Part shown: positions 1 to 60,183 of the stretch, piece after piece
Layout: the number at the start of each line of letters is the position of its first letter
Position numbering within the stretch: position 1 is the stretch's first letter
From: Photorhabdus heterorhabditis
Lineage (GTDB): Bacteria; Pseudomonadota; Gammaproteobacteria; Enterobacterales; Enterobacteriaceae
Direction of reading: 5' to 3'
Assembly (NCBI RefSeq): GCF_018448905.1
Contig: NZ_RCWA01000010.1
Location: 62,001-126,000, forward strand
DNA: 64,000 bases
Position numbers and translations under genes: made by a program
Notes under the pieces: generated by a model
Told to the model about the DNA's origin: nothing
The model's database searches: none
Seen by the model: only the letters and a program-made list of their open reading frames with translations

Positions 1-164
1 AAATAGCGGTATGCCGTTGCTCTGGAAACCCCTGCATGTATTGCCAATTCGGAAACTGAAGGTATCGCTCTCTGCTCAAAAAGTTCCAATGCAGCATTTA
101 TCAGCAATGTATAAGTTTTTTTCCGAGTACCAGTAAAATGAGGTTTAGTATTCGAGTCCATCAT
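1..164 (-). CDS. TetR-family transcriptional regulator, N-terminal part (cut by window edge)
   Basis: The reverse strand reads out of the window from ATG at 164, preceded by AAAGAG. About 54 codons are visible. They encode a short charged tail, then a helix (LINAALELFEQ) and a helix-turn-helix ending in AGVSRATAYRYF, the classic TetR recognition helix. Proteins of this type repress a neighbouring operon until a small ligand binds the C-terminal domain, which is outside the window. It is divergent from the Tm-1-like gene at 400, so that gene is its likely target. An in-frame GTG at 170 and a second ATG at 161 are alternative starts. Confidence 0.8.
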   Translation of the reverse strand, partial: MMDSNTKPHFTGTRKKTYTLLINAALELFEQRAIPSVSELAIHAGVSRATAYRY

Positions 165-289
165 TGCCACAACTCTTTCACAATAAGATTCTCTATATCA
201 GCGTATGGTTAAAATATTTTTTCGACATCATCACTCTACTTAATTACCTACAAAACGCCCAAATTGATTCAATTTATTTACAAATAAAA

Positions 290-305
290 TGAGATGATAG
301 TCTCA
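290..305. promoter_or_regulatory. Candidate TetR operator (dyad TGAGA-N6-TCTCA)
   Basis: The divergent intergenic region contains TGAGATGATAGTCTCA, a 5-bp inverted repeat with a 6-bp spacer. A further GTCTCA half-site lies near 333. Dyads of this size between a TetR gene and its divergent target are common operators. That this one is bound by the regulator at 1-164 is inference. Confidence 0.35.
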
Positions 306-399
306 ATTTGATGATATAACAGTGATACTCAAGTCTCACATTGACTATAATCTGTCCATAAGTTAGTCGCCAGCACCAAGGGAAATATTCATAATTATA

Positions 400-1620
400 A
401 TGAAAAATAACCACGGCTATATTTATATTGCCACCATTTTTGATACCAAGAGTGCAGAAATCTTCTACGTCAGGGATCTGATAGAAAAAACTGGCCTTGC
501 CGTTCGCACTGTGGACTTGACGACTAAACCTGGCCCACTGGAAAGAGGCGCGGATATTACTTCACTAACAGTAGCAGAGCATCATCCACAAGGCAAAGAA
601 GCCGTTTTCTGTGGTGATCGGGGTAAAGCAATTTCCGCAATGGCAATTGCCTTTAAAACTTTTTTATCAAGACAAACTGATATTTTAGCTATTCTGGGGC
701 TAGGGGGTTCTGGTGGGACAGCCCTGATTACACCCGCCATGCAGTCTTTACCTATAGGTATACCAAAACTTATGGTTTCTACCATGGCTTCCGGTAATGT
801 TTCTGGGTATGTTGGGGTTAGTGATATCGCTATGCTGTATTCAGTCACTGATGTATCTGGCCTTAACCGTATCTCTCGTCAGGTATTAAAAAATGCGGCC
901 AACCAAATTGCTGGCGCAGTTTATTTTCATGAAGAGAGCAATATCGAAGATAAGCCTGCTATTGGCCTGACAATGTTTGGTGTGACAACACCGTGTATAC
1001 AGTTGCTGACCAAAGAGCTGGAACAGCAATATGACTGTTTAGTTTTCCATGCAACCGGCAGCGGTGGCAAAACCATGGAAAAACTGGCCGAAAGTCGCTT
1101 ACTTAACAGTCTGCTTGATATAACCACAACTGAAGTCTGTGACTATTTATTTGGCGGTATTCTGGCCTGTGATGTTGACCGTTTGAGTGCAATAGCCCGC
1201 ACAAAAATACCTTATATTGGTTCTTGCGGGGCGTTAGATATGGTGAATTTTGGTCATCCGAATACTATTCCGGGACACTATAAAAACAGGCAATTTTACC
1301 GTCATAATCCCCATGTAACATTAATGCGCACCACACCAGAAGAGAATTATCAAATGGGAATTTGGATCGCTGAAAAACTTAATCAGTGCGAAGGAAAAGT
1401 GAAATTTATTATTCCTGAAGGTGGTTTTTCTGCTCTGGATATTGAAGATGGACCATTCTGGAACCCTGAAGCGACTCAAGCATTTATCAACGCTTTCGAG
1501 TCTACATTTATAGAAATGGAAAATAGACAACTGATTAAAAGTTCTCATCACGTGAATTCATCTGAATTTTGCCAACAAGTGATCAGCGAATATCAGCAAA
1601 TGATGAATTCAGTTGTATAG
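400..1620 (+). CDS. Tm-1-like ATP-binding / UPF0261 family protein
   Basis: 406 aa, the usual length for the bacterial UPF0261 family, homologous to the N-terminal half of the plant Tm-1 antiviral protein. Visible marks are the opening [15 protein letters not shown], a glycine-rich loop ([15 protein letters not shown], residues about 100-115), the segment [13 protein letters not shown], and [11 protein letters not shown]-like [14 protein letters not shown] near 220. These line a nucleotide-binding cleft in the family. Bacterial members often sit beside a TIM-barrel partner (the Tm-1 C-terminal half). No such partner follows here, only two tiny ORFs and a terminator. The biochemical role is not known. 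The divergent TetR gene suggests inducible expression. Confidence 0.85.
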
Positions 1621-1652
1621 ATAGTCCAGAATTGAAACAGGAGGAAAACTTA

Positions 1653-1733
1653 ATGAACCAAAATACTGACGATAATGCCAGTACAGAAGCGGTATTGACA
1701 CTGAAAGATTATGTACAACTAATTAATGACTAG
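1653..1733 (+). CDS. 26-residue ORF with a strong ribosome-binding site
   Basis: ATG at 1653 is preceded by ACAGGAGGAAAACTTA, a near-perfect Shine-Dalgarno at good spacing, 32 bp after the Tm-1-like stop. The peptide (start MNQNTDDNAS, end YVQLIND) is acidic and matches no family I recognise. Its stop overlaps the next ATG in the string ATGACTAG, which would couple translation of the 63-codon frame at 1726. It could be the stub of a larger gene lost by deletion or a true small peptide. Confidence 0.4.
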   Translation: MNQNTDDNASTEAVLTLKDYVQLIND

Positions 1734-1917
1734 GCAAAAAGTTGCCAAAATAGGGCATTCTGATGCTATTGTTCTATTAGCCGCGATTTCTACGGCACGT
1801 CTGTCGAGTAATCGCACTAAAAGAGTAAAAGTAGCCAAATACTCGTGTTCCAAAGGGAAGCCACAAGAACTTCCTGTTAATAATCGAGTCATAACATATT
1901 GGAAGTTAACAAACTAA
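1726..1917 (+). CDS. Hypothetical 63-residue basic protein
   Basis: This frame starts inside the stop of the preceding 26-codon ORF (ATGACTAG overlap) and ends about 65 bp before a clear terminator. No other gene occupies the stretch. The product is rich in Lys and Arg with no signal peptide or membrane segment, and I do not recognise it. Overlap and position favour translation, but lack of homology makes a remnant equally likely. Confidence 0.25.
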   Translation: MTRQKVAKIGHSDAIVLLAAISTARLSSNRTKRVKVAKYSCSKGKPQELPVNNRVITYWKLTN

Positions 1918-1981
1918 ATTAAAATATAAATATACCTGCTTTGTTTTCTTCCTTTCGGAGCATATTTCCGTCAACACCAGG

Positions 1982-2012
1982 CTCCTGCGGCCCCCACCGC
2001 AGGAGTTTTTTT
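1982..2012 (+). terminator. Rho-independent terminator
   Basis: A 9-bp G+C-rich stem (CTCCTGCGG / CCGCAGGAG) with a 6-nt loop is followed by seven T residues. It closes the Tm-1-like transcription unit. Confidence 0.85.
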
Positions 2013-2046
2013 ATGGATATACAGGCAATTAAAACTTGATAAGATA

Positions 2047-2174
2047 TATACCCTTCATCTTTCAAGCTGCTGCTTTGTTGGCTGCGTTCACTTACCCCAG
2101 TCACATAGTTATCTATGCTCCTGGGGATGCGTTCTCTTGCCGCCGCACTGCAACTTGAAATCTATTGGGTATAT
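2047..2174 (-). repeat. ERIC element, full length
   Basis: About 128 bp beginning TATACCCTTCATCTTTC and ending ATTGGGTATA, with the central CCCCAG / CTGGGG dyad typical of ERIC (enterobacterial repetitive intergenic consensus) sequences. Oriented opposite to copies at 30127, 32726 and 60057. It lies left of the peptide-modification operon. Confidence 0.9.
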
Positions 2175-2195
2175 AATATTTCGCTTCGCTCTCAA

Positions 2196-2250
2196 TGAGA
2201 ATTTAGGGGAGAATTCCGCAGTTTTGTTAAAACTCCCCAATTTAGTCTCA
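2196..2250. repeat. Imperfect inverted repeat, possible MITE end or hairpin
   Basis: TGAGAATTTAGGGGAG and, 20 bp later, CTCCCCAATTTAGTCTCA form imperfect inverted arms in otherwise empty DNA between the ERIC copy and the carboxypeptidase gene. No transposase is near. It could also act as a transcript 3' hairpin for the minus-strand operon. Confidence 0.35.
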
Positions 2251-2386
2251 TCGGATTACAAACAATCAGCCAAATAATCAAATACCCCAAGAGTAACACC
2301 AGGAAATGAACTGGCGATGGCAAAGTTAAAACATAGGGTCAACAATAGATTCAGTGCCCTCCTGTTATCAACCCTACATTTTCTTA

Positions 2387-3823
2387 TTAAATATTCTCAT
2401 ATTTAGCGATAATCATGTCTCTTGCGTATAATGTACTTATTTTCTCTTCTGTACCAGATTCGATTATATCAACAGGTGAAAAAAAGGCGCCTTTTAACCA
2501 AATGTTTTTTCTTAGCCAAAGAAGAGTATCTTCGTAGTTTAAATCACCTATTTTTTTATATATCTGTGATGCATATATATAACCGAGCATATAGCATGGG
2601 AAATAACCCAAAAAACCTGCGGCCCAATGGATATCCTGCATACATCCATTTTTATGATCTTTCCCTGAACTTATACCTAATAATTTAAGAGAAAGTTCAT
2701 CCCATAATTCAGGTATATCATTAACCGTTATATTTTTATTAATCAAATCTTTCTCAATTAAATAACGTAAATAAATATGCTGCAAGTAATGTATTTCATC
2801 TGTATTTATCCTGGTTTCATTAAGTTTTAATTGCAGCAAGTGTTTTCTTATACTACTAGCTGATATATTTAATCCGTATTTCACTGTTTTTTTTGATAAA
2901 TAATTAATAAAAGAATCAGAATAACCATAACACATTTCAAAGAATAAACTCTGACTTTCATGTATTCCAATAGAACAAGGATAAGATACAGGCATGCCTA
3001 AAAATTCATTAGGAAGATTCCTTTCATATAGAGAGTGTCCAAATTCATGTAAAGAAGCATAGATTCCACCCATGAAATTAGAATCTGAATATCTATTCGT
3101 GATTCTTATATCATCTCTGGTTCCACCACAAAAAGGATGAGCGCTGACATCTAATCTCCCTCTGGAAAAATCAAATCCTAGTTCAGAAAGCATCTCTTTA
3201 TTTATCTTTATTTGCGTTCTAATTGGAATTTTCTGATTTACATTCCTATTTAATGAGTTTGATTTAAACCGTTCTGCTAAACCAGGTAGCCACATCTGAA
3301 TCTCTTCAAAAAGATTATCTAACATATCCGTCTTCATCATTGGCTCATACTCGTTCAATAATGATTCATAGGGGCTGGTACCTGAAGCTTCAGATAAAAT
3401 ATCGGCTTTTTCTCTTATTAATTCGACTAATTGTGTCAAATCTTTTGAAAACCCTTGCCAATTATTTATTTCTTTATTTTTAACCCATGAATATTCACAC
3501 TGACAGGTAATCTTCTTTATTTCTTTTACTAAGGAAATAGGAAGTAGTCGCTTTTGTTCAATTTCCTTTTTAGCCGAGAGAAGAGCCATTATTGTGATAT
3601 TATCCAGATTATCATCTAAGAGTAATTTTTCTACCGCATCAAAAATAACTTGTGATGTCTTTTTTTCATGAATAATTAATTCTGCCTCTGAAAGCGCTTC
3701 TGCCCTTGCTAAGAAGCTATTCTCAGGCATCATAGTAGTTTGATCCCAATAACATATATCCATCAAATGTTCGATATTATATATTGAACGATAGTATTCT
3801 TTTATATCAGATAATTCCCTCAT
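2387..3823 (-). CDS. M32-family (Taq-type) metallocarboxypeptidase
   Basis: 478 aa, close to the usual 490-510 of peptidase family M32. The zinc motif HEFGH sits at residues 259-263 and the third ligand in [11 protein letters not shown] at about 289. Other family marks are [18 protein letters not shown] (225-242) and the N-terminal [10 protein letters not shown]32 enzymes remove single residues from peptide C termini. It is the last gene of a tightly coupled operon, its ATG overlapping the exporter stop by 4 bp (ATGA). In that context it more likely trims or releases product from the small peptide encoded upstream than acts in general protein turnover. The gene is A+T-rich relative to the core genes in the window. 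No signal peptide, so cytoplasmic. Confidence 0.9.
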
Positions 3824-4698
3824 TTCTTTTTCCCTATAAATGCTATTATGACACTGGAAAATATAAACAACATGCCAATAAACATATTGCGAGTTATTGA
3901 TTCATTTAGAAAATAATAGGATATCAACACACTAAATATAGGCGATATAAGTGCAGAATAAGCGGTTAACTCTGCGCCACCACGTTCTATCATGTAAAAC
4001 CATAAAATATAAACAAGAACACCACTCGCTATCCCCATATATAGAATAGGTATAAAAATATGGGTAACTGTCTGAAAAAACTCACCATTAAAATTAAATA
4101 TATTAAGGTTTGTAGATAAAAATGGCGTTATAATTATCATTAATAAAAATGAAACAATATTTTGATATAAAACCTTGGAAAATATATCTAACTGAGTGGG
4201 TATTTTTTCTGATAAAAAAGTTCCTAATGCCCATGCGAAGGCACTGACTAATATGATGCACTCACCAAAGCTTATTTCTTTTAAGGATATGAATATCAAA
4301 ACGCCTAATATACAAAGTATAGACACAGTAATTGATCTAAAACTGATTCTTCTGCTACTTATCATTGTCAGAAAAGAGGTAATAGCAGGCATTGTGTATA
4401 TAAGCACAGATGCTTTCACAGAATCTGTATATTTTAGTGATATGTTATTTAAAACAGGCACCAAGAAAACATTTAAAATACCCAGAGGTATACAAAATAA
4501 CAGATCATAAAAATTCGGTTTTTTTTTATATAAAATCAAAACCAGAAAAATCAATATTAATACGGATGTAATCGTTGAGTAAAAACGAAAAGGCCATACC
4601 CCAATTTGCTCAATAGCTATTTTTGAAATAGGGAATCCGCCTCCCCATAACATTGCTATTAGGATTGCGGAAGAAAGTACTTTTTTATTTCTAGTCAT
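3820..4698 (-). CDS. EamA/DMT-family transporter (probable exporter)
   Basis: 292 aa with about ten hydrophobic segments in two EamA-like halves (for example AILIAMLWGGGFPISKIAIEQ at the start and PIFSVLISYYFLNESIT near 260), the layout of drug/metabolite transporters such as RhaT or YdcZ relatives. It overlaps the oxygenase gene upstream by 8 bp (ATGACTAG) and the carboxypeptidase gene downstream by 4 bp. DMT members typically export amino acids or small metabolites rather than long peptides. In this operon that suggests the final product is small. The substrate is inferred, not shown. Confidence 0.85.
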   Translation of the reverse strand: MTRNKKVLSSAILIAMLWGGGFPISKIAIEQIGVWPFRFYSTITSVLILIFLVLILYKKKPNFYDLLFCIPLGILNVFLVPVLNNISLKYTDSVKASVLIYTMPAITSFLTMISSRRISFRSITVSILCILGVLIFISLKEISFGECIILVSAFAWALGTFLSEKIPTQLDIFSKVLYQNIVSFLLMIIITPFLSTNLNIFNFNGEFFQTVTHIFIPILYMGIASGVLVYILWFYMIERGGAELTAYSALISPIFSVLISYYFLNESITRNMFIGMLFIFSSVIIAFIGKKK

Positions 4699-5362
4699 AT
4701 CTAACCACCAAGGCCATTCTCCTTTTTTTACTCTCAGCGGTCACCATAGACACAAAATGAGGTATTTCCTTTTCACTGGTATCGAAAATCAATGTCGTCA
4801 AATTATATGGAACTAATGTATCCGTGATAAATTTACGCTCATTATCCAGAATAACCGTTAATCCTCCATGGTTTGGATTCCAATTATCAGTCAAATTTAT
4901 TACTATGCCAAAACTTTCTCCCGGGTCACAATGCGTCGTTAAAAAATCTCCTTTATCAAATCTGTTTAAATATAATAAAGCCATTTTCTTTATCTCTCTG
5001 CCTGTTATTGATGTAAGAAATGACTTGAATTTTTCGCTATCTACTATGTTTTTTATCTCAGAAAAACAGGTTATTTTTTCACTCCTGTCATTATCAGGAA
5101 GTCGCCTGAAAGAAAATGAAAAAATACCATTATTATAATCTTCAATTGAAATTGATTTTTCCCTTTCAATTTCCTCTATACTATTCTCACTCAAATAAAA
5201 ATCATGCTCTCCATACCTATTCTTTATAATATAAGACCACTCACTGTCACTAATTGAATTAAAATTATCTGAAAAAAAAGCAAACTCAGGAAAAAATTCA
5301 TCTATTGAAAAACTCACATAGCCTTTATTCTTAAATGCTGAGTACAGATCTTTAATTTTCAT
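4691..5362 (-). CDS. 2-oxoglutarate/Fe(II)-dependent oxygenase (prolyl-4-hydroxylase-like)
   Basis: 223 aa from ATG 5362. The double-stranded beta-helix iron site is visible: H144-x-D146 in THCDPGESFGIVINL, distal H202 in IPHFVSMV, and Arg 214/215 for the 2-oxoglutarate carboxylate. Such enzymes hydroxylate, desaturate or otherwise oxidise unactivated carbons. The longer open frame to 5440 is rejected as a start because ATG 5362 overlaps the stop of the adenylyltransferase gene by 11 bp (ATGAAAATTAA), which implies coupled translation. In the operon it probably oxidises a residue of the 33-aa peptide, possibly an acidic one, since seven of the last thirteen residues are Glu or Tyr/Thr neighbours. 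The target residue is unknown. Confidence 0.85.
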   Translation of the reverse strand: MKIKDLYSAFKNKGYVSFSIDEFFPEFAFFSDNFNSISDSEWSYIIKNRYGEHDFYLSENSIEEIEREKSISIEDYNNGIFSFSFRRLPDNDRSEKITCFSEIKNIVDSEKFKSFLTSITGREIKKMALLYLNRFDKGDFLTTHCDPGESFGIVINLTDNWNPNHGGLTVILDNERKFITDTLVPYNLTTLIFDTSEKEIPHFVSMVTAESKKRRMALVVRYD

Positions 5363-6473
5363 CAAATATGTACTCCTCTCTGGTTTTAAAATCTCTAAGC
5401 GAGATATAAAGCTTTTTACCGACAAGAGCAGGTTCATCATATCCAGTGATTATTTTTACTACCTGATCAGCAACCAACCCAGACATTGCAGCTAATGATG
5501 GTGCACTTTGCCACGCATTAACCTTTCTATTACCGTCTAAGAATTGTTGCTTCATCCTCGCTTCCTGGAATTTCTTTACATCATTATTTTCACTATAAAA
5601 TTGCTTTTTAATGCTTTTCTTGGCATCAAAATAAGTCTTCTCTTGCCCATTATTTAAATAAATTGGCCCAACGGATATCTCGAAAGGATCACCTCCCAGT
5701 TCTATGACGGGTATATTTTTATTACAAGCCAATTCATGTACTATTCCTTCAACCGTATTTTTCCTGAAATAACCCAGGCTGGCCCATGCAAGTAAAACTA
5801 AATCAACACCATCCAACATCTCTTTAAGTCTATTTTCATCTGTTGTAGCAAACTCAAAATACTTTTCTACATTCGTGTATTTATTGTGCCTTTTTATCCC
5901 CTCCTCAGCCGCATCGACTTTATTTTTTCCAATATCATCAAAAGTATAAAGAACTTGCCTGTTCAAGTTAGATAATTCAACATCATCTCCATCAACAATT
6001 CTTAACGTTCCCACACCAGCTAACGCTAATTGCAATGAACACCAGGTTCCCCATCCCCCCATACCAAGAACTAAAATTCTACTTTCTTTTAATCTTTCTT
6101 GATACTTTATAGAATTTATATTCTCGTTATCTATTAAAGAATATTGAAGAAGTTGCCTGTCGTATAACTCAATTTCCTGTGATGTAAGAATATCTGAGAA
6201 TATTGCGTTATCTTCAATAAGCCCAAATGAATTTAATTTTTCAATAAAATTGACGATTTCATGCTCATTTATTTTATACCCCATATGTGAAATTTCTTTT
6301 ATTATTCTTGGGATCGTATGAAAACCATCAAGTTTAGATAAAACAACTTTCACCCATTCTGGCGGATTTTTAATAATTTGAGATTTCTTAGGCACTTCAC
6401 CTATACAAATATCACCATCATCAGAAAGGATGATGTGATGAGAGCGCTTAATTAACGGCTTAGTAATTCTCAT
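5352..6473 (-). CDS. ThiF/MccB-like E1-type adenylyltransferase with N-terminal winged-helix (PqqD/RRE-like) domain
   Basis: 373 aa. Residues about 1-95 form a small alpha/beta domain (DGFHTIPRIIKEI... EHEIVNFIEKLNSFGLIED) resembling PqqD-like peptide-recognition elements. The E1 core follows: RQLLQYS (106-112), nucleotide loop GMGGWG (137-142), acidic DGDDVELSNLNRQ (161-173) and a helical C-terminal segment AWQSAPSLAAMSGLVADQVVK. No CxxC zinc pairs are seen, unlike ThiF or MoeB. E1-like enzymes activate a C-terminal carboxylate as acyl-AMP. MccB does this on the microcin C7 heptapeptide. Here the obvious substrate is the 33-aa peptide encoded 47 bp upstream. The gene is separated from it by a terminator-like hairpin and has its own SD (TAGGAAA). 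Confidence 0.85.
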   Translation of the reverse strand: MRITKPLIKRSHHIILSDDGDICIGEVPKKSQIIKNPPEWVKVVLSKLDGFHTIPRIIKEISHMGYKINEHEIVNFIEKLNSFGLIEDNAIFSDILTSQEIELYDRQLLQYSLIDNENINSIKYQERLKESRILVLGMGGWGTWCSLQLALAGVGTLRIVDGDDVELSNLNRQVLYTFDDIGKNKVDAAEEGIKRHNKYTNVEKYFEFATTDENRLKEMLDGVDLVLLAWASLGYFRKNTVEGIVHELACNKNIPVIELGGDPFEISVGPIYLNNGQEKTYFDAKKSIKKQFYSENNDVKKFQEARMKQQFLDGNRKVNAWQSAPSLAAMSGLVADQVVKIITGYDEPALVGKKLYISLRDFKTREEYIFDEN

Positions 6474-6486
6474 ATTAATTTCCTAC

Positions 6487-6510
6487 AAAAGCCGCCATTA
6501 GGCGGCTTTT
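6487..6510 (-). terminator. Intercistronic terminator/attenuator between peptide gene and enzymes
   Basis: AAAAGCCGCC-TAAT-GGCGGCTTTT on the minus strand is a perfect 10-bp stem with a 4-nt loop and a short T run. It lies between the peptide stop (6520) and the adenylyltransferase start (6473). Only four Ts follow, so partial read-through is expected. That would give far more peptide mRNA than enzyme mRNA, the usual design of RiPP operons. Confidence 0.8.
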
Positions 6511-6519
6511 ATCTAGTTC

Positions 6520-6621
6520 TTATTCGAGTTCAATGGATTCTTCTTCAGTGTACATAGCTTTTTCTTCGCTGATAGAAGAGATACGTTCTTCGAGTTCTAC
6601 GAAAGACATTTCTTGATTCAT
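6520..6621 (-). CDS. 33-residue candidate RiPP precursor / scaffold peptide
   Basis: This ORF was too short for a typical ORF scan. ATG 6621 is preceded by TGAGGTATATACC, a good SD at 8 nt. The product begins MNQEMSFVELEERISS and ends TEEESIELE. It has 12 Glu, one Lys, one Arg, no Cys, and a predicted helical first half. Codon use is clean (many GAA, CGT, ATC), unlike random A+T-rich DNA. It is followed by a hairpin and then by genes for an E1-like enzyme, an Fe/2OG oxygenase, an exporter and a carboxypeptidase. The FVELEER region is a candidate leader bound by the enzyme's N-terminal domain, and the acidic tail the candidate core. No known precursor family is recognised. Confidence 0.8.
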   Translation of the reverse strand: MNQEMSFVELEERISSISEEKAMYTEEESIELE

Positions 6622-6697
6622 GGTATATACCTCAATTAGATTATTACGTTATGTTTCCCAGTGTTAACCATTTAATTACAACTAGCTAACAAACAAA

Positions 6698-6725
6698 TTA
6701 ATAATATAAAAATAATTAAAGTCAA
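6698..6725 (-). promoter_or_regulatory. Candidate sigma-70 promoter of the peptide operon
   Basis: On the minus strand TTGACT (6725-6720) is followed after about 16-17 bp by TATTAA. Transcription would begin about 65-70 nt before the precursor ATG. This is the best match in the region, and the surrounding DNA is very A+T-rich, so weaker alternatives exist. Confidence 0.5.
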
Positions 6726-7775
6726 GAATTTTTCTTAAACTCTAGAAAAAATATCAAGCTATGATAGTTTCTTTTCAAAAAACATGATAATTTATAAAGA
6801 GTTATATGATACTAAGCTATTTAAGTCATTCTAATAATTACAAATAGTAATCATCAAAATGACAAATGGTTTTTGAAAAAAACAATTTCATTAAATAAGT
6901 TATTCCCATTTAATATTAAAAAAAGCATTAACAGTCTAAATAATAAATATATTTGTAATTTCTTAAAAATATATTTGAAACTGACTTCCTATCCTATTGG
7001 GTATATTTATTTATCTTTATTATCAGGGGTAAATATAATAAGAAATCAAACTGGCTGGGACAATTACGCCGATTTTAGGATTGATTTATACCCAATAGAT
7101 TTCAAAATGGATCGCGACGAATGGTCATAAATAACTGGCGTTGTAATCTGTTTATCATCATATCACCTCGCTAAATGGTACATTTTTATTTCCGTATACT
7201 CCGCTCCTTGAATCAATTGCAGAACGAAATTTAATCACACCTATTTTTTTATCATCTTGTTGATAATACGTTTAAATTACAATTAAAACTTTATGAAATT
7301 ATTTAGATAAATTTAACTATAAACACCCTTCGAATAAAATTTAATAAAACGGTCAAACATAACAACATCAAAAGAGATAACAAGATAATAATGCAATCAC
7401 AGATTGAATAAATCCATCTGACATACATATCGCCAAACATGAGTAATTGATTAAAAAAATCATATAAATGATATTTTATAATGAAAAAATTTAACTTATC
7501 TATTAATTTAAACATTCATTTAAGTATTTAACACTATAATATGGAACTAAATATTTCACTATCATCTGACTTAAATCTCCTTGCAAGTAAATAGTGGCGG
7601 TATCTCAATCATAAGTATACACATCAGCAAACTATTTTATGGCTACAAGCACATTATCTTTATTCCCTTACTGTTAACCATTGAATAAACCATGTAGAAT
7701 AGATGAATATTTTCTGAGTACGCCGCATCTTAAGAAACAATTAATTTTACCTTTTTCAATCAGCAGGTTTTTCAA
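6726..7775. other. A+T-rich spacer with an ERIC remnant, no convincing gene
   Basis: About 1 kb separates the peptide operon from the MATE gene. A 33-bp ERIC end (TATACCCAATAGATTTC... ATCGCGACG) occurs at 7087-7119 without the rest of the element. Two open frames (6873-7130 plus, 7303-7515 minus) have poor composition, no good SD and no recognisable domain. The first reads through the ERIC fragment. Confidence 0.6.
7087..7119 (+). repeat. ERIC terminal fragment (33 bp)
   Basis: Matches the outer end of the full ERIC copies elsewhere in the window (TATACCCAATAGATTTC, then ATCGCGACG) and stops abruptly. It marks a deletion or rearrangement junction on the right flank of the peptide operon. Confidence 0.8.
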
Positions 7776-9116
7776 ATGCATCAAACCGATGTTACTGAGC
7801 GTTCGCTCTTTTCATTAAGCTGGCCAATTTTTATTGATATTCTTCTCCATCTGGTCACTTTATTAATTAACACCTACATGGTGAGCCATGTTTCTACTTC
7901 TTACCTGGCCGCTATGGCAGTTGGTAATCAAGTATTTGACCTGTTTATCACTATCTTCAATTTTATCAGCGTCGGTTGCAGTGTCGTTATTGCTCAGTAC
8001 ATTGGTGCAGGCAAACGTGATAAAGCCAGTCAGGCAATCCATATTTCTATTGCATTTAACTTCTTGCTTGGGTTCACTTGTGCGCTGATTACTATCTTCT
8101 TAGGCTATAAGATCCTACATATCATGAACATGCCTGAGCATCTAATGAAAGATGGTTTTAGCTATCTGCACATTCTGGGTATTTGTCTGATCCCTGAAGC
8201 AATTTCGATTATTCTGGCAGCTTGCCTGCGAGTTTATGGGAAATCCAAAGTAGCCATGTATGTCACGTTGATTGCTAACTTGCTGACTGTACTGGGTAAT
8301 ATGATTGTCCTGTATGGCTTCTTCGGGTTGCCTAAATATGGTCTGGAAGGTGTCGCCTGGTCTACGGTCTTTGGCCGGATTGTTGCTGTGATCTTGTTAT
8401 TCTGTCTGCTCAGTTACGGCTTGCGGATTAAATTTACGCTGTCGGGTTTCCTGCTCTGGTCAAAGAATATGTTGGGTAAAATCTTACATGTCGGTTTACC
8501 CGCTGCGGGCGAAAACGTTGTGTGGATCTTACAATATATGGCTGCCATAGCCTTTATTGGCTTGATGGGTGAAACCGCACTGGCAGCACAAACGCTCTAC
8601 TTCCAGCTATCGCTGTTTGTTATGTTATTTGGTATCTCCATCAGCATTGGTAATGAAATCATGGTCGGCCATTTGGTCGGTGCCAAACGGTTTGAAGACG
8701 CTTATATTCGTGGCCTCAACAGCCTGAAAATTGGTTGTATCGTGACCGTTGGGGTTGTCACCGCTTTCTGGCTGTTCAGAATACCGATCTTGCATTTTCT
8801 AACGCAAGACGAATCCATTATCAAACTTTTATTGCCATTATTCTTACTGTCTGTATTTATGGAGCCTATCCGTACTGCAAATATCGTTATGGTAAACGCA
8901 TTGCGCGCATCCGGTGATGCCCGTTTCCCGTTATATACTGCCATGTTCTTTATGTGGTGTGTGGCTATTCCGGTGGGATATTTTCTTGGGATCAAGATGG
9001 AAATGGGTATCTTAGGTATTTGGATCGGTTTCTTCTGTGATGAATGGCTCCGTGGGTTCATTAATACATGGCGTTGGAAATCCAAAAAATGGCAAACCAA
9101 ACGATTAGATATTTAA
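7776..9116 (+). CDS. MATE-family multidrug/metabolite efflux transporter
   Basis: 446 aa with about twelve membrane segments in two homologous halves, beginning ERSLFSLSWPIFIDILLHLVTLLINTYMVSHVS, the usual MATE opening. GCSVVIAQYIGAGKRDKA and IGNEIMVGHLVGAKRFEDA are the paired inter-half loops typical of the family. MATE proteins export cationic drugs or metabolites using Na+ or H+ gradients. Length fits NorM/DinF relatives. SD-like AGCAGG precedes the ATG. It stands alone, between A+T-rich DNA and nested ERIC repeats, so no operon partner suggests a substrate. Confidence 0.9.
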   Translation: MHQTDVTERSLFSLSWPIFIDILLHLVTLLINTYMVSHVSTSYLAAMAVGNQVFDLFITIFNFISVGCSVVIAQYIGAGKRDKASQAIHISIAFNFLLGFTCALITIFLGYKILHIMNMPEHLMKDGFSYLHILGICLIPEAISIILAACLRVYGKSKVAMYVTLIANLLTVLGNMIVLYGFFGLPKYGLEGVAWSTVFGRIVAVILLFCLLSYGLRIKFTLSGFLLWSKNMLGKILHVGLPAAGENVVWILQYMAAIAFIGLMGETALAAQTLYFQLSLFVMLFGISISIGNEIMVGHLVGAKRFEDAYIRGLNSLKIGCIVTVGVVTAFWLFRIPILHFLTQDESIIKLLLPLFLLSVFMEPIRTANIVMVNALRASGDARFPLYTAMFFMWCVAIPVGYFLGIKMEMGILGIWIGFFCDEWLRGFINTWRWKSKKWQTKRLDI

Positions 9117-9200
9117 TCAACAATCACTAATCATCAAAAAACAATAAAAAAATAATGGTGATAAGAAGCAGGATGTTGCTAACTGCTCATTATCACCATT

Positions 9201-9453
9201 TATACCCGTTATCTTTCAAGTTGCCTCTTTGTTGGCTGCTCTCACCCCCGGTCACATCGTTATCTATACCCTTCATCTTTCAAGCTGCTGCTTTGTTGGC
9301 TGTGTTCACTTACCCCAGTCACAGAGTTATCTATGCTCCTGGGGATGCGTTCTCTTGCCGCCGCCCTGCAACTTGAAATCTATTGGGTATAGGCTCCCGG
9401 GGATTCGTTCCCTTGTGCCGTCGCGATCCATCTTGAAATCCATTGGGTATATA
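9201..9453 (-). repeat. ERIC element with a second ERIC inserted inside it
   Basis: An outer ERIC runs from TATACCCGTTATCTTTC at 9201 to about 9268, is interrupted, and resumes at about 9390 with CTCCCGGGGATTCG to end TTGGGTATA at about 9452. The interruption (about 9265-9391) is itself a complete ERIC in the same orientation. The insertion is at the central TA of the outer copy, which appears on both sides of the inner element. Confidence 0.9.
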
Positions 9454-9460
9454 CATTTAA

Positions 9461-10138
9461 TTAGCGGTTATTAGCAGTTAAATGTTCTTCTTTACCATAA
9501 TGCTCTGAACGTGGTCCATAGAGTAAACCTCGGTTACCACCCGCTGTCAGTAGGCGATAACTTGTAATACCCGCAATTTCATGACCTTTATCCGTAATGG
9601 TATTCGCGATTTGTGAAATTACCGCTGACACTAACATTCCAATAAGATTACTATTTGAATTATTTTGATTTTCAGTCGATGAAGCGACAGCCCGGCCACT
9701 CCACAGTTGCTTGCCACTACGCAGGTCCACCAACTTGGCTGAAGCGGTTACCCGGGTATCACTGTTAATAATCTGATATTGCGTACCGTATTCTTCAATA
9801 TCCAGATAGAGCGCTGAATCTGCACCAAAAATTTCATGCAGTTTTTTATAACTGATATTTTGAGCATCCTGCCCCACTGTCACGCCATTTTGCTGCAATG
9901 TTTCTTCCACAACAGCAACCGGTAAAACATAGTAGCCAGATTCTGCCAGTGGATAAGTCACTTGAGAAATCAGGCTGTGCCCTGCCTTAACTTCCAGAGA
10001 TTTATTTACCGCCGGCAATACTAGAATAGATTTTGGTTTGCTCTCTTTAAATGCAGTGTAGTCATAAGGGACAGATTTACTACACCCTGTTAGCACAAAT
10101 GCAGCTAATAAACTTAACGCCACAAGAACACGGTTCAT
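9461..10138 (-). CDS. DUF799-family (GNA1162-like) lipoprotein
   Basis: 225 aa with a lipoprotein signal (MNRVLVALSLLAAFVLTGCSK, lipobox LTGC, Cys 19). The domain from about residue 35 (PKSILVLPAVNKS... YYVLPVAVVEETLQQNG... GADSALYLDIEEYG) is DUF799, structurally related to TolB-like N-terminal folds. Its ATG overlaps the DUF4810 stop by 4 bp. The trio CsgG-like, DUF4810 and DUF799 recurs in Gram-negative bacteria (NMB1124-1126 in Neisseria) and is thought to form an outer-membrane-associated secretion or envelope complex. The precise role is unknown. The gene runs to within 10 bp of the nested ERIC. Confidence 0.85.
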   Translation of the reverse strand: MNRVLVALSLLAAFVLTGCSKSVPYDYTAFKESKPKSILVLPAVNKSLEVKAGHSLISQVTYPLAESGYYVLPVAVVEETLQQNGVTVGQDAQNISYKKLHEIFGADSALYLDIEEYGTQYQIINSDTRVTASAKLVDLRSGKQLWSGRAVASSTENQNNSNSNLIGMLVSAVISQIANTITDKGHEIAGITSYRLLTAGGNRGLLYGPRSEHYGKEEHLTANNR

Positions 10139-10494
10139 TGCATAGTTCCTTTATTTTTACTTAATAAAAAGTCCATAAATGGCGCTGATTCAGGAAACAA
10201 TGTTTTCTCTGCTTCAAACTGATGGAACGCTTCTGAAACACGACCGGTCTTGCTATAGAGCAAACCCATCTGTGCATGCAACCCAGGCGGTACTGGTTTA
10301 GCTTTCGCTTTCGCTTTTTCAATTACTTGCTGCAAAGCCTGTAGTTGCTCGTCAAATCCCATCTTGTCCTGCTGATAATACTGATAAATTGTAGGTTCGT
10401 ATTGACCCCACTCATAAATCGTTTTTGGTTGATTGACACAACCTACCAGGACCGTCGCGGCCAGTAATAAGCCCATTTTTTTCATTAATATCAT
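10135..10494 (-). CDS. DUF4810-family lipoprotein
   Basis: 119 aa with a lipobox (LVGC, Cys 19). The mature part IYEWGQYEPTIYQYYQ... MGFDEQLQALQQVIEKAKAKAKPVPPGLHAQMGLLYSKTGR resembles a single TPR-like repeat, as expected for DUF4810. Middle gene of the CsgG/DUF4810/DUF799 operon: 21 bp after the CsgG-like stop and overlapping the next gene. AGGG lies 10 nt before the chosen ATG. An internal ATG three codons in is possible. Confidence 0.85.
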   Translation of the reverse strand: MILMKKMGLLLAATVLVGCVNQPKTIYEWGQYEPTIYQYYQQDKMGFDEQLQALQQVIEKAKAKAKPVPPGLHAQMGLLYSKTGRVSEAFHQFEAEKTLFPESAPFMDFLLSKNKGTMQ

Positions 10495-10515
10495 GAGAAT
10501 ATATCCCTAAATTTC

Positions 10516-30126: not shown

Positions 30127-30256
30127 TATATGCCCAATAGATTTAAAATTGCAACGCGGCGGCAAGTGAACGCATCCCCAGGAGCATAGATAACGATGTG
30201 ACTGGGGTAAGTGAAAGCAACCAACAAAGCAGCAACTTGAAAGATGACGGGTATAT
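30127..30256 (+). repeat. ERIC element, full length
   Basis: From TATATGCCCAATAG to GACGGGTATA with the central CCCCAGGAGCATAG / GTGACTGGGG. Slightly diverged at the left end (TTTAAAATTGC). Confidence 0.9.
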
Positions 30257-32725: not shown

Positions 32726-32855
32726 TATACCCAATAGATTTCAAGTTGCAGCGCGGCGGCAAGAAAACGCATCCCCAGGAGCAGCATAGATAACGATGTG
32801 ACTGGGGTAAGTGAACGCAGCCAACAAAGCAACAACTTGAAAGATGAAGGGTATA
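32726..32855 (+). repeat. ERIC element, full length with 3-bp insertion
   Basis: TATACCCAATAGATTTC to GATGAAGGGTATA. The centre reads GAGCAGCATAGAT instead of GAGCATAGAT. Confidence 0.9.
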
Positions 32856-60056: not shown

Positions 60057-60183
60057 TATACCCAATAGATTTCAAGTTGCAGCGCGGCGGCAAGAGAACG
60101 CATCCCCAGGAGCATAGATAACGATGTGACTGGGGTAAGTGAACGCAGCCAACAAAGCCGCAGCTTGAAAGATGAAGGGTATA
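60057..60183 (+). repeat. ERIC element, full length, inserted in another ERIC
   Basis: TATACCCAATAGATTTC to GATGAAGGGTATA. It joins directly to the right half of a second ERIC at the sequence TAGATAAC, the same point at which the 9201 copy is interrupted. Confidence 0.9.

Follow-up and report, generated by a model that had tools for sequence, protein, structure and literature searches.

The gene cluster for pantocin A, paaPABC, was published in 2003. According to the accessible parts of PMC12250964, its precursor PaaP has 30 residues, of which F4, L7, R10 and I11 are important for binding to PaaA, while E16 and E17 undergo dual dehydration and decarboxylation; the third core residue is N18. 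In PaaA, the exchange R174A sharply reduces activity and K187A eliminates it. PaaB is a 2-oxoglutarate (2OG)-dependent iron enzyme that presumably makes the conjugated alkene, and PaaC is an EamA transporter conferring resistance. Pantocin A itself is taken up via a tripeptide transporter and blocks histidine synthesis. The same source describes related precursors with Lys, Ile or Asp in place of Asn. Here, we report on a locus in Photorhabdus heterorhabditis (contig NZ_RCWA01000010.1) which we are highly confident is a pantocin A-type cluster for a ribosomally synthesized and post-translationally modified peptide (RiPP), with the genes paaP-paaA-paaB-paaC, a Lys core, and an added carboxypeptidase gene of peptidase family M32. 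All coordinates of the locus are positions in the window, i.e. the whole analysed stretch of 64,000 nucleotides.

The cluster occupies positions 2387-6621 on the minus strand. A gene for a 33-residue peptide (paaP, 6520..6621) is followed by a hairpin and then by four genes: paaA (5352..6473; 373 residues), paaB (4691..5362; 223 residues), paaC (3820..4698; 292 residues) and the M32 gene (2387..3823; 478 residues). The coordinates confirm the five genes, their positions and the overlaps of 11, 8 and 4 bp that the initial annotation had given, the last of these overlaps lying between paaC and the M32 gene. The block is indeed rich in A+T, as had also been noted: in 1-kb windows the G+C content of the cluster genes is 30-34%, compared to about 38-44% at 1-2500 and 7500-10500, and the non-coding region 6500-7500 is even poorer (26%).

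The peptide, MNQEMSFVELEERISSISEEKAMYTEEESIELE, scores 61.2 bits against the NCBIfam model TIGR04310 "pantocin A family RiPP" (cut-off 35), and seven of eight genomes scanned with this model exceed the cut-off. Its leader carries the motif F7xxL10xxR13-I14, the core is E19-E20-K21, and the follower is acidic with Glu as the last residue. Leader and core thus keep the published register shifted by three positions (F7, L10, R13, I14, E19, E20, K21). Two other Photorhabdus genomes encode exactly this precursor, and that of Providencia burhodogranariea has 91% identity to it. Because of the match to a curated precursor family and these conserved homologues, the 33-codon acidic peptide gene is more than a chance open reading frame (ORF). 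A Lys core as such is not new, since PMC12250964 already reports Lys in place of Asn. It does mean that the locus, although a member of the pantocin A class, is not one for pantocin A itself, for position 21 holds Lys and not the Asn of the pantocin A core.

PaaA, an adenylyltransferase of the ThiF/E1-like type, contains a PaaA-like N-terminal domain (PF21475, 92.7 bits) and a ThiF domain (PF00899, 141.3 bits), and aligns with the crystallised PaaA (PDB 5ff5) with 505.5 bits over residues 4-370. The catalytic Arg and Lys are kept: R174 of PaaA corresponds in the alignment to R172 of the window enzyme, and K187 to K185. The ThiF fold would also suit a cofactor or sulfur-carrier pathway (ThiF/MoeB type), in which case the neighbouring short ORF would be unrelated, and the MoeB and ThiF models do match the enzyme, but at 95.9 bits (cut-off 266) and 90.1 bits (cut-off 275.25), respectively, far under what they require, against 505 bits for PaaA; moreover, the enzyme has no CxxC motif. 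This explanation was rejected on these scores, and its probability is negligible. PaaB is recognized as a Fe(II)/2-oxoglutarate oxygenase by the Pfam model 2OG-FeII_Oxy_4 (29.7 bits, cut-off 27), with the motif residues H144-x-D146, H202 and R214/R215, and PaaC as an exporter of the EamA/DMT family (PF00892, 126.8 bits) with a probable function in self-protection.

These family matches support the RiPP-type pathway that had been proposed, in which an Fe/2OG enzyme and an exporter accompany an E1-like enzyme that acts on a short acidic peptide. The further statement that no known RiPP class fits was wrong, as the locus belongs to the pantocin A class because both precursor and PaaA match curated pantocin models. 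A new RiPP or peptide-scaffold pathway, as favoured in the initial annotation, is consistent with the fact that the five-gene set with its M32 enzyme was not found described in the accessible literature, but the precursor and PaaA lie far above the cut-offs of the pantocin models, with core and leader motifs in register. A new class, rejected by the family matches in Pfam, NCBIfam and PDB, is thus very improbable. Relatives of the adenylyltransferase that act in a known pathway had been named as grounds for giving up the proposal, and in spirit this is what was found. The sole component absent from the published paaPABC cluster is the M32 carboxypeptidase.

The signals upstream of paaA are less clear. 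The terminator-like hairpin between paaP and paaA that had been seen earlier is present (6485..6512, minus strand; 12 bp, -20.1 kcal/mol), and a stem-loop is predicted at the same place in all 11 other clusters that were folded. A terminator scan did not list the hairpin among its sites; it is possible that it serves as an attenuator which keeps precursor mRNA in excess. The promoter-like site upstream of paaP (6667-6640, minus strand; TTAACA-16-AATAAT, 10 of 12 matches) also exists and is the best of its kind on that strand. It is weak evidence for a promoter, however, because the A+T-rich stretch contains six such sites compared to 2.6 +/- 1.3 in shuffled sequences. A scan of positions 1-9000 with Rfam at gathering thresholds gave no match.

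A scan of genome contigs for relatives yielded 13 loci. The PaaA-like N-terminal domain was found in three of 13 Photorhabdus genomes and in two of 295 genomes of the family. With the enzyme of the window as query and a threshold of E 1e-60, relatives of PaaA were found in 5/24 genomes of the genus of Providencia burhodogranariea, 3/60 of that of Pantoea brenneri, 1/398 of that of Pseudomonas kitaguniensis, 1/379 of the order of an Aquabacterium record and 2/369 genomes of the class; in each count the genome on which the search was centred is itself counted. Relatives are also present in four plasmid records, two of which were read, and in two viral contigs. No relative of paaA was found in the phage records, nor in the E. 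coli records by a DNA search. One of the viral contigs (IMG/VR, L058 865-10701) carries paaPABC with an Asn core between phage portal and tail-fibre genes, apparently as prophage cargo; terminase and capsid-scaffold genes lie on the same contig, and a similar cluster is present in L059. Another locus (L022 6211-7302) encodes a PaaA-like protein with 38% identity without recognisable paaP, paaB or paaC and may represent a distant branch of the family.

For comparison we used a set of 21 clusters, i.e. the window and 20 related loci, all 20 of which have homologues of paaP, paaA, paaB and paaC in the same order. The initial annotation had suggested a search for short ORFs upstream of ThiF-like genes, and such homologues are present in each of the 20. 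Left out of the count were L022/L042 (the PaaA with 38% identity), L059 (which matches like L058), L009 (same genome as L041), L020, L021 and L023 (counterparts of L002, L001 and L007), the short loci L014-L019, L024-L031, L032-L037, L108, L109 and L111 (from genomes already counted or from that of L022), two Sinorhizobium plasmids (H1, H3), and L110, a short form of L112.

The core residue following Glu-Glu is Lys in five clusters (the window, L001, L002, L003 and L011), Asn in nine, Asp in four, Ile in two and Ser in one; the Asn cores of L039 and L040, missed by the pattern script, were read by eye. An M32 gene directly follows paaC in 5/5 Lys-core clusters and in 0/16 others, where at least 3.4 kb beyond paaC were examined. 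The five stem from Photorhabdus, Providencia burhodogranariea and Pseudomonas kitaguniensis. In the PaaA tree the Pseudomonas cluster lies among the Asn types (support 98/98), far from the Photorhabdus and Providencia clusters (99/98), and the pairing of Lys and M32 thus occurs in two well-separated PaaA lineages. An acidic follower was rejected as the correlate of M32: Providencia clusters with Ile or Asn cores have acidic followers as well, but no M32 gene. In a search of 20 genomes, the cluster copy was the only M32 gene in four of the five Lys-type genomes, the window genome having a second one elsewhere; among 12 hosts of non-Lys clusters seven had none and five had one elsewhere, and none was found in three Photorhabdus genomes without paaA. 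The second gene of the window genome (contig C2, L060 7503-10970) is also diverged; arsH is close by, and there is an overlap with a gene for a beta-propeller protein (PQQ_2-like).

The M32 protein matches PF02074 (Peptidase_M32) with 382.9 bits. M32 enzymes in the PDB match too, the best being 3dwc, which we take to be TcMCP-1. Among the family motifs listed in the accessible text of PMC7918520, the window enzyme has HPF at 229, DIRIT at 238, HEFGH at 259-263, HESQ at 288-291 and GCMQDIHW at 393, and it is a member of peptidase family M32 by HPF, DxRxT, HExxH, HESQ and GxxQDxHW; IRxxAD, also listed there, reads RINTDE. All five cluster enzymes retain HExxH as well as the Glu in HESQ. At the same time, 34 housekeeping-type relatives share 122 columns with at least 95% invariance, and the window enzyme departs from them in 37 of these; the best other M32 match among 398 genomes of the phylum is only 40% identical. 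Judging from these residues, the cluster enzyme is diverged yet looks active. Its N terminus is not hydrophobic, and its location is probably the cytosol. The substitutions shared by the five cluster enzymes were inspected as well; there are many columns at which every one of the five deviates, but they did not yield a rule for specificity. In the M32 tree the Pseudomonas and Morganellaceae cluster enzymes are joined (84/88), on long branches. Of the 30 M32 loci obtained from the search of the phylum, 29 entered this tree as rows, the thirtieth being the gene of the window itself; further matches of that search came without a locus.

Gene content, gene order, homology, conserved residues and the co-occurrence of Lys and M32 are direct observations; the chemical steps in P. 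heterorhabditis, the product, its target and the role of M32 we infer as follows. The N-terminal domain of PaaA would, by homology, bind the leader at F7xxLxxRI, and PaaA would activate Glu19 and Glu20 with ATP, leading through double dehydration and decarboxylation to a bicycle, into which PaaB would install the conjugated double bond. Proteases would free the bicycle carrying Lys21, and PaaC would export it. The product is likely bicycle-Lys, the counterpart of pantocin A with Lys in place of Asn. At the C terminus the M32 enzyme would act, either by trimming the follower to Lys or by removing Lys for immunity. Pantocin-type pathways would then be split by their core, with a Lys type, found in two PaaA lineages, that depends on an M32 enzyme of its own for one of these two tasks; we give this proposal an even chance. 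As to the task itself, there is about one chance in two that the 12-residue follower is trimmed back to Lys.

The specificity of characterised M32 enzymes bears on both tasks. In the accessible text of PMC6675120, TcMCP-1 and TbMCP-1 prefer basic residues ("at the P1 position"), and TcMCP-1 produces des-Arg9-bradykinin. Such a preference would be compatible with the enzyme acting at Lys21 or beside it, but is no proof of it. The available text of PMC7918520 gives a hydrophobic preference for ChtCP in the abstract and the highest kcat/KM for polar-basic residues further on.

Instead of maturing the peptide, the M32 enzyme could confer immunity: mature antibiotic within the producing cell would lose its C-terminal Lys to this enzyme, which would back up the protection by PaaC export. 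In function, it would resemble MccF, a peptidase of the microcin C system. The presence of M32 follows the core residue and not the follower, as the Providencia clusters mentioned above illustrate; basic C-terminal residues are cleaved by some M32 enzymes, as far as the cited sources go; and the gene is the last one of the cluster, adjoins the exporter gene and encodes a protein without a hydrophobic N terminus. Against this reading, non-Lys clusters have PaaC alone and there are just two independent contrasts; we hold immunity to be somewhat less probable than follower trimming. Other roles, including that of a passenger gene, have a small share of the probability. A passenger, caught beside the cluster and co-transcribed by chance, would be a single gene observed in two independent contrasts only, but the fact that in the window it shares 4 bp with paaC, the position beside paaC in three genera together with the absence at 16/16 non-Lys clusters, and the intact zinc-site motifs in spite of 37/122 changed columns make it improbable.

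Several points weigh against a Lys type with a dedicated M32 enzyme. The pairing rests on two independent contrasts on well-supported branches (sign test, p 0.5), or three on all branches; because of this small number the link is suggestive and not significant, and statistical proof was not reached. Both Ile-core clusters (L038, and L041 from P. rettgeri RB151), which belong to Providencia, look frame-broken: in L038 paaB is spread over three frames, and in L041 paaA is short of the first 126 residues and paaC is split between two frames, so that the absence of M32 is less informative there. Without this pair 14 non-Lys clusters are left, several of which are close kin (three identical Asn precursors and two identical Asp precursors). 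Among the enzymes, that of the Pseudomonas cluster is only 31% identical to the window enzyme and lacks the DxRxT pattern, and in that of the Providencia cluster Glu replaces Gln in GxxQDxHW. A placement of the Pseudomonas enzyme with enterobacterial housekeeping-type enzymes is not rejected by the approximately unbiased test (p-AU 0.106); its position in the tree is unsure, and the M32 gene may have had one origin or two. Specificity is varied across the family, as ChtCP indicates in the part of the source cited above. Finally, M32 is not generally required for pantocin synthesis, since 7/12 non-Lys hosts have no such gene; this agrees with accessible reports that a 3.5-kb Pantoea fragment contained all essential sequences and that E. 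coli produced pantocin A.

In five Photorhabdus genomes without paaA (L103-L107) the cluster is absent between the UPF0261 and MATE genes. Two long genes occupy the site in L103, L104 and L105, those of L105 (G304; 5497-8220, equivalent to window positions 2047-7120) encoding tryptophanase and a tryptophan permease. Two of the five genomes retain a remnant of the PaaC C terminus of 27-28 residues with 64-70% identity (L105 4285-4368, L106 3533-3613), and the cluster was therefore probably more widespread in Photorhabdus in the past. A dispersed repeat of 127 bp has many copies in the window (2047-2173, 9265-9391, 30129-30255, 32726-32855, 60057-60183 and others), one of them at the left edge of the cluster region. 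After the UPF0261 gene, an ORF for 26 residues (1653-1733) with GGAGG before it has no family match.

The locus places a pantocin-type cluster in the insect-associated genus Photorhabdus, which is absent from the pantocin A rows in the accessible part of a 2024 survey. No new RiPP class is involved; the cluster has a defined predicted product, a Lys pantocin, and its M32 enzyme is a specific candidate for processing of the C terminus or for immunity. If this holds true, the pantocin class would include a dedicated step of C-terminal processing or self-protection, and the M32 family would have a biosynthetic use of a kind that was not found described in the sources available. No description of an M32 enzyme within a pantocin cluster was found in the literature searched, including the accessible parts of PMC12250964, PMC7744662, PMC3390384, PMC10885120, PMC11350110, PMC7918520, PMC6675120 and PMC9484694; an earlier mention in Ghodge 2016, Fleming 2020 or Smits 2019 is possible.

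Microcin C resembles the locus in that a ThiF-like enzyme, MccB, acts on a peptide. Its precursor is short, typically seven residues, and ends in Asn, and MccB has a CxxC zinc site. The window, in contrast, encodes a precursor of 33 residues ending in Glu and an enzyme without CxxC, which matches MccB with 71 bits, far below its match to PaaA; unlike in microcin C, the core is an internal Glu-Glu, and a nucleotide-peptide product is not expected. The nearest relatives with a Glu-Glu-Lys core and an M32 gene after paaC are Photorhabdus asymbiotica (97% identity for PaaA and 93% for M32) and P. australis (96% and 91%), followed by Providencia burhodogranariea (80% and 52%) and Pseudomonas kitaguniensis (58% and 31%). 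Pantoea brenneri has a PaaA homologue with 58% identity to that of the window, and a hairpin between paaP and paaA is likewise present there. The paaPABC clusters of P. agglomerans Eh318 and P. vagans C9-1 share with the window the precursor family, the register of leader and core, PaaA, PaaB, PaaC and the gene order; compared to them, the window has Lys instead of Asn in the core, an acidic follower and the additional M32 carboxypeptidase.

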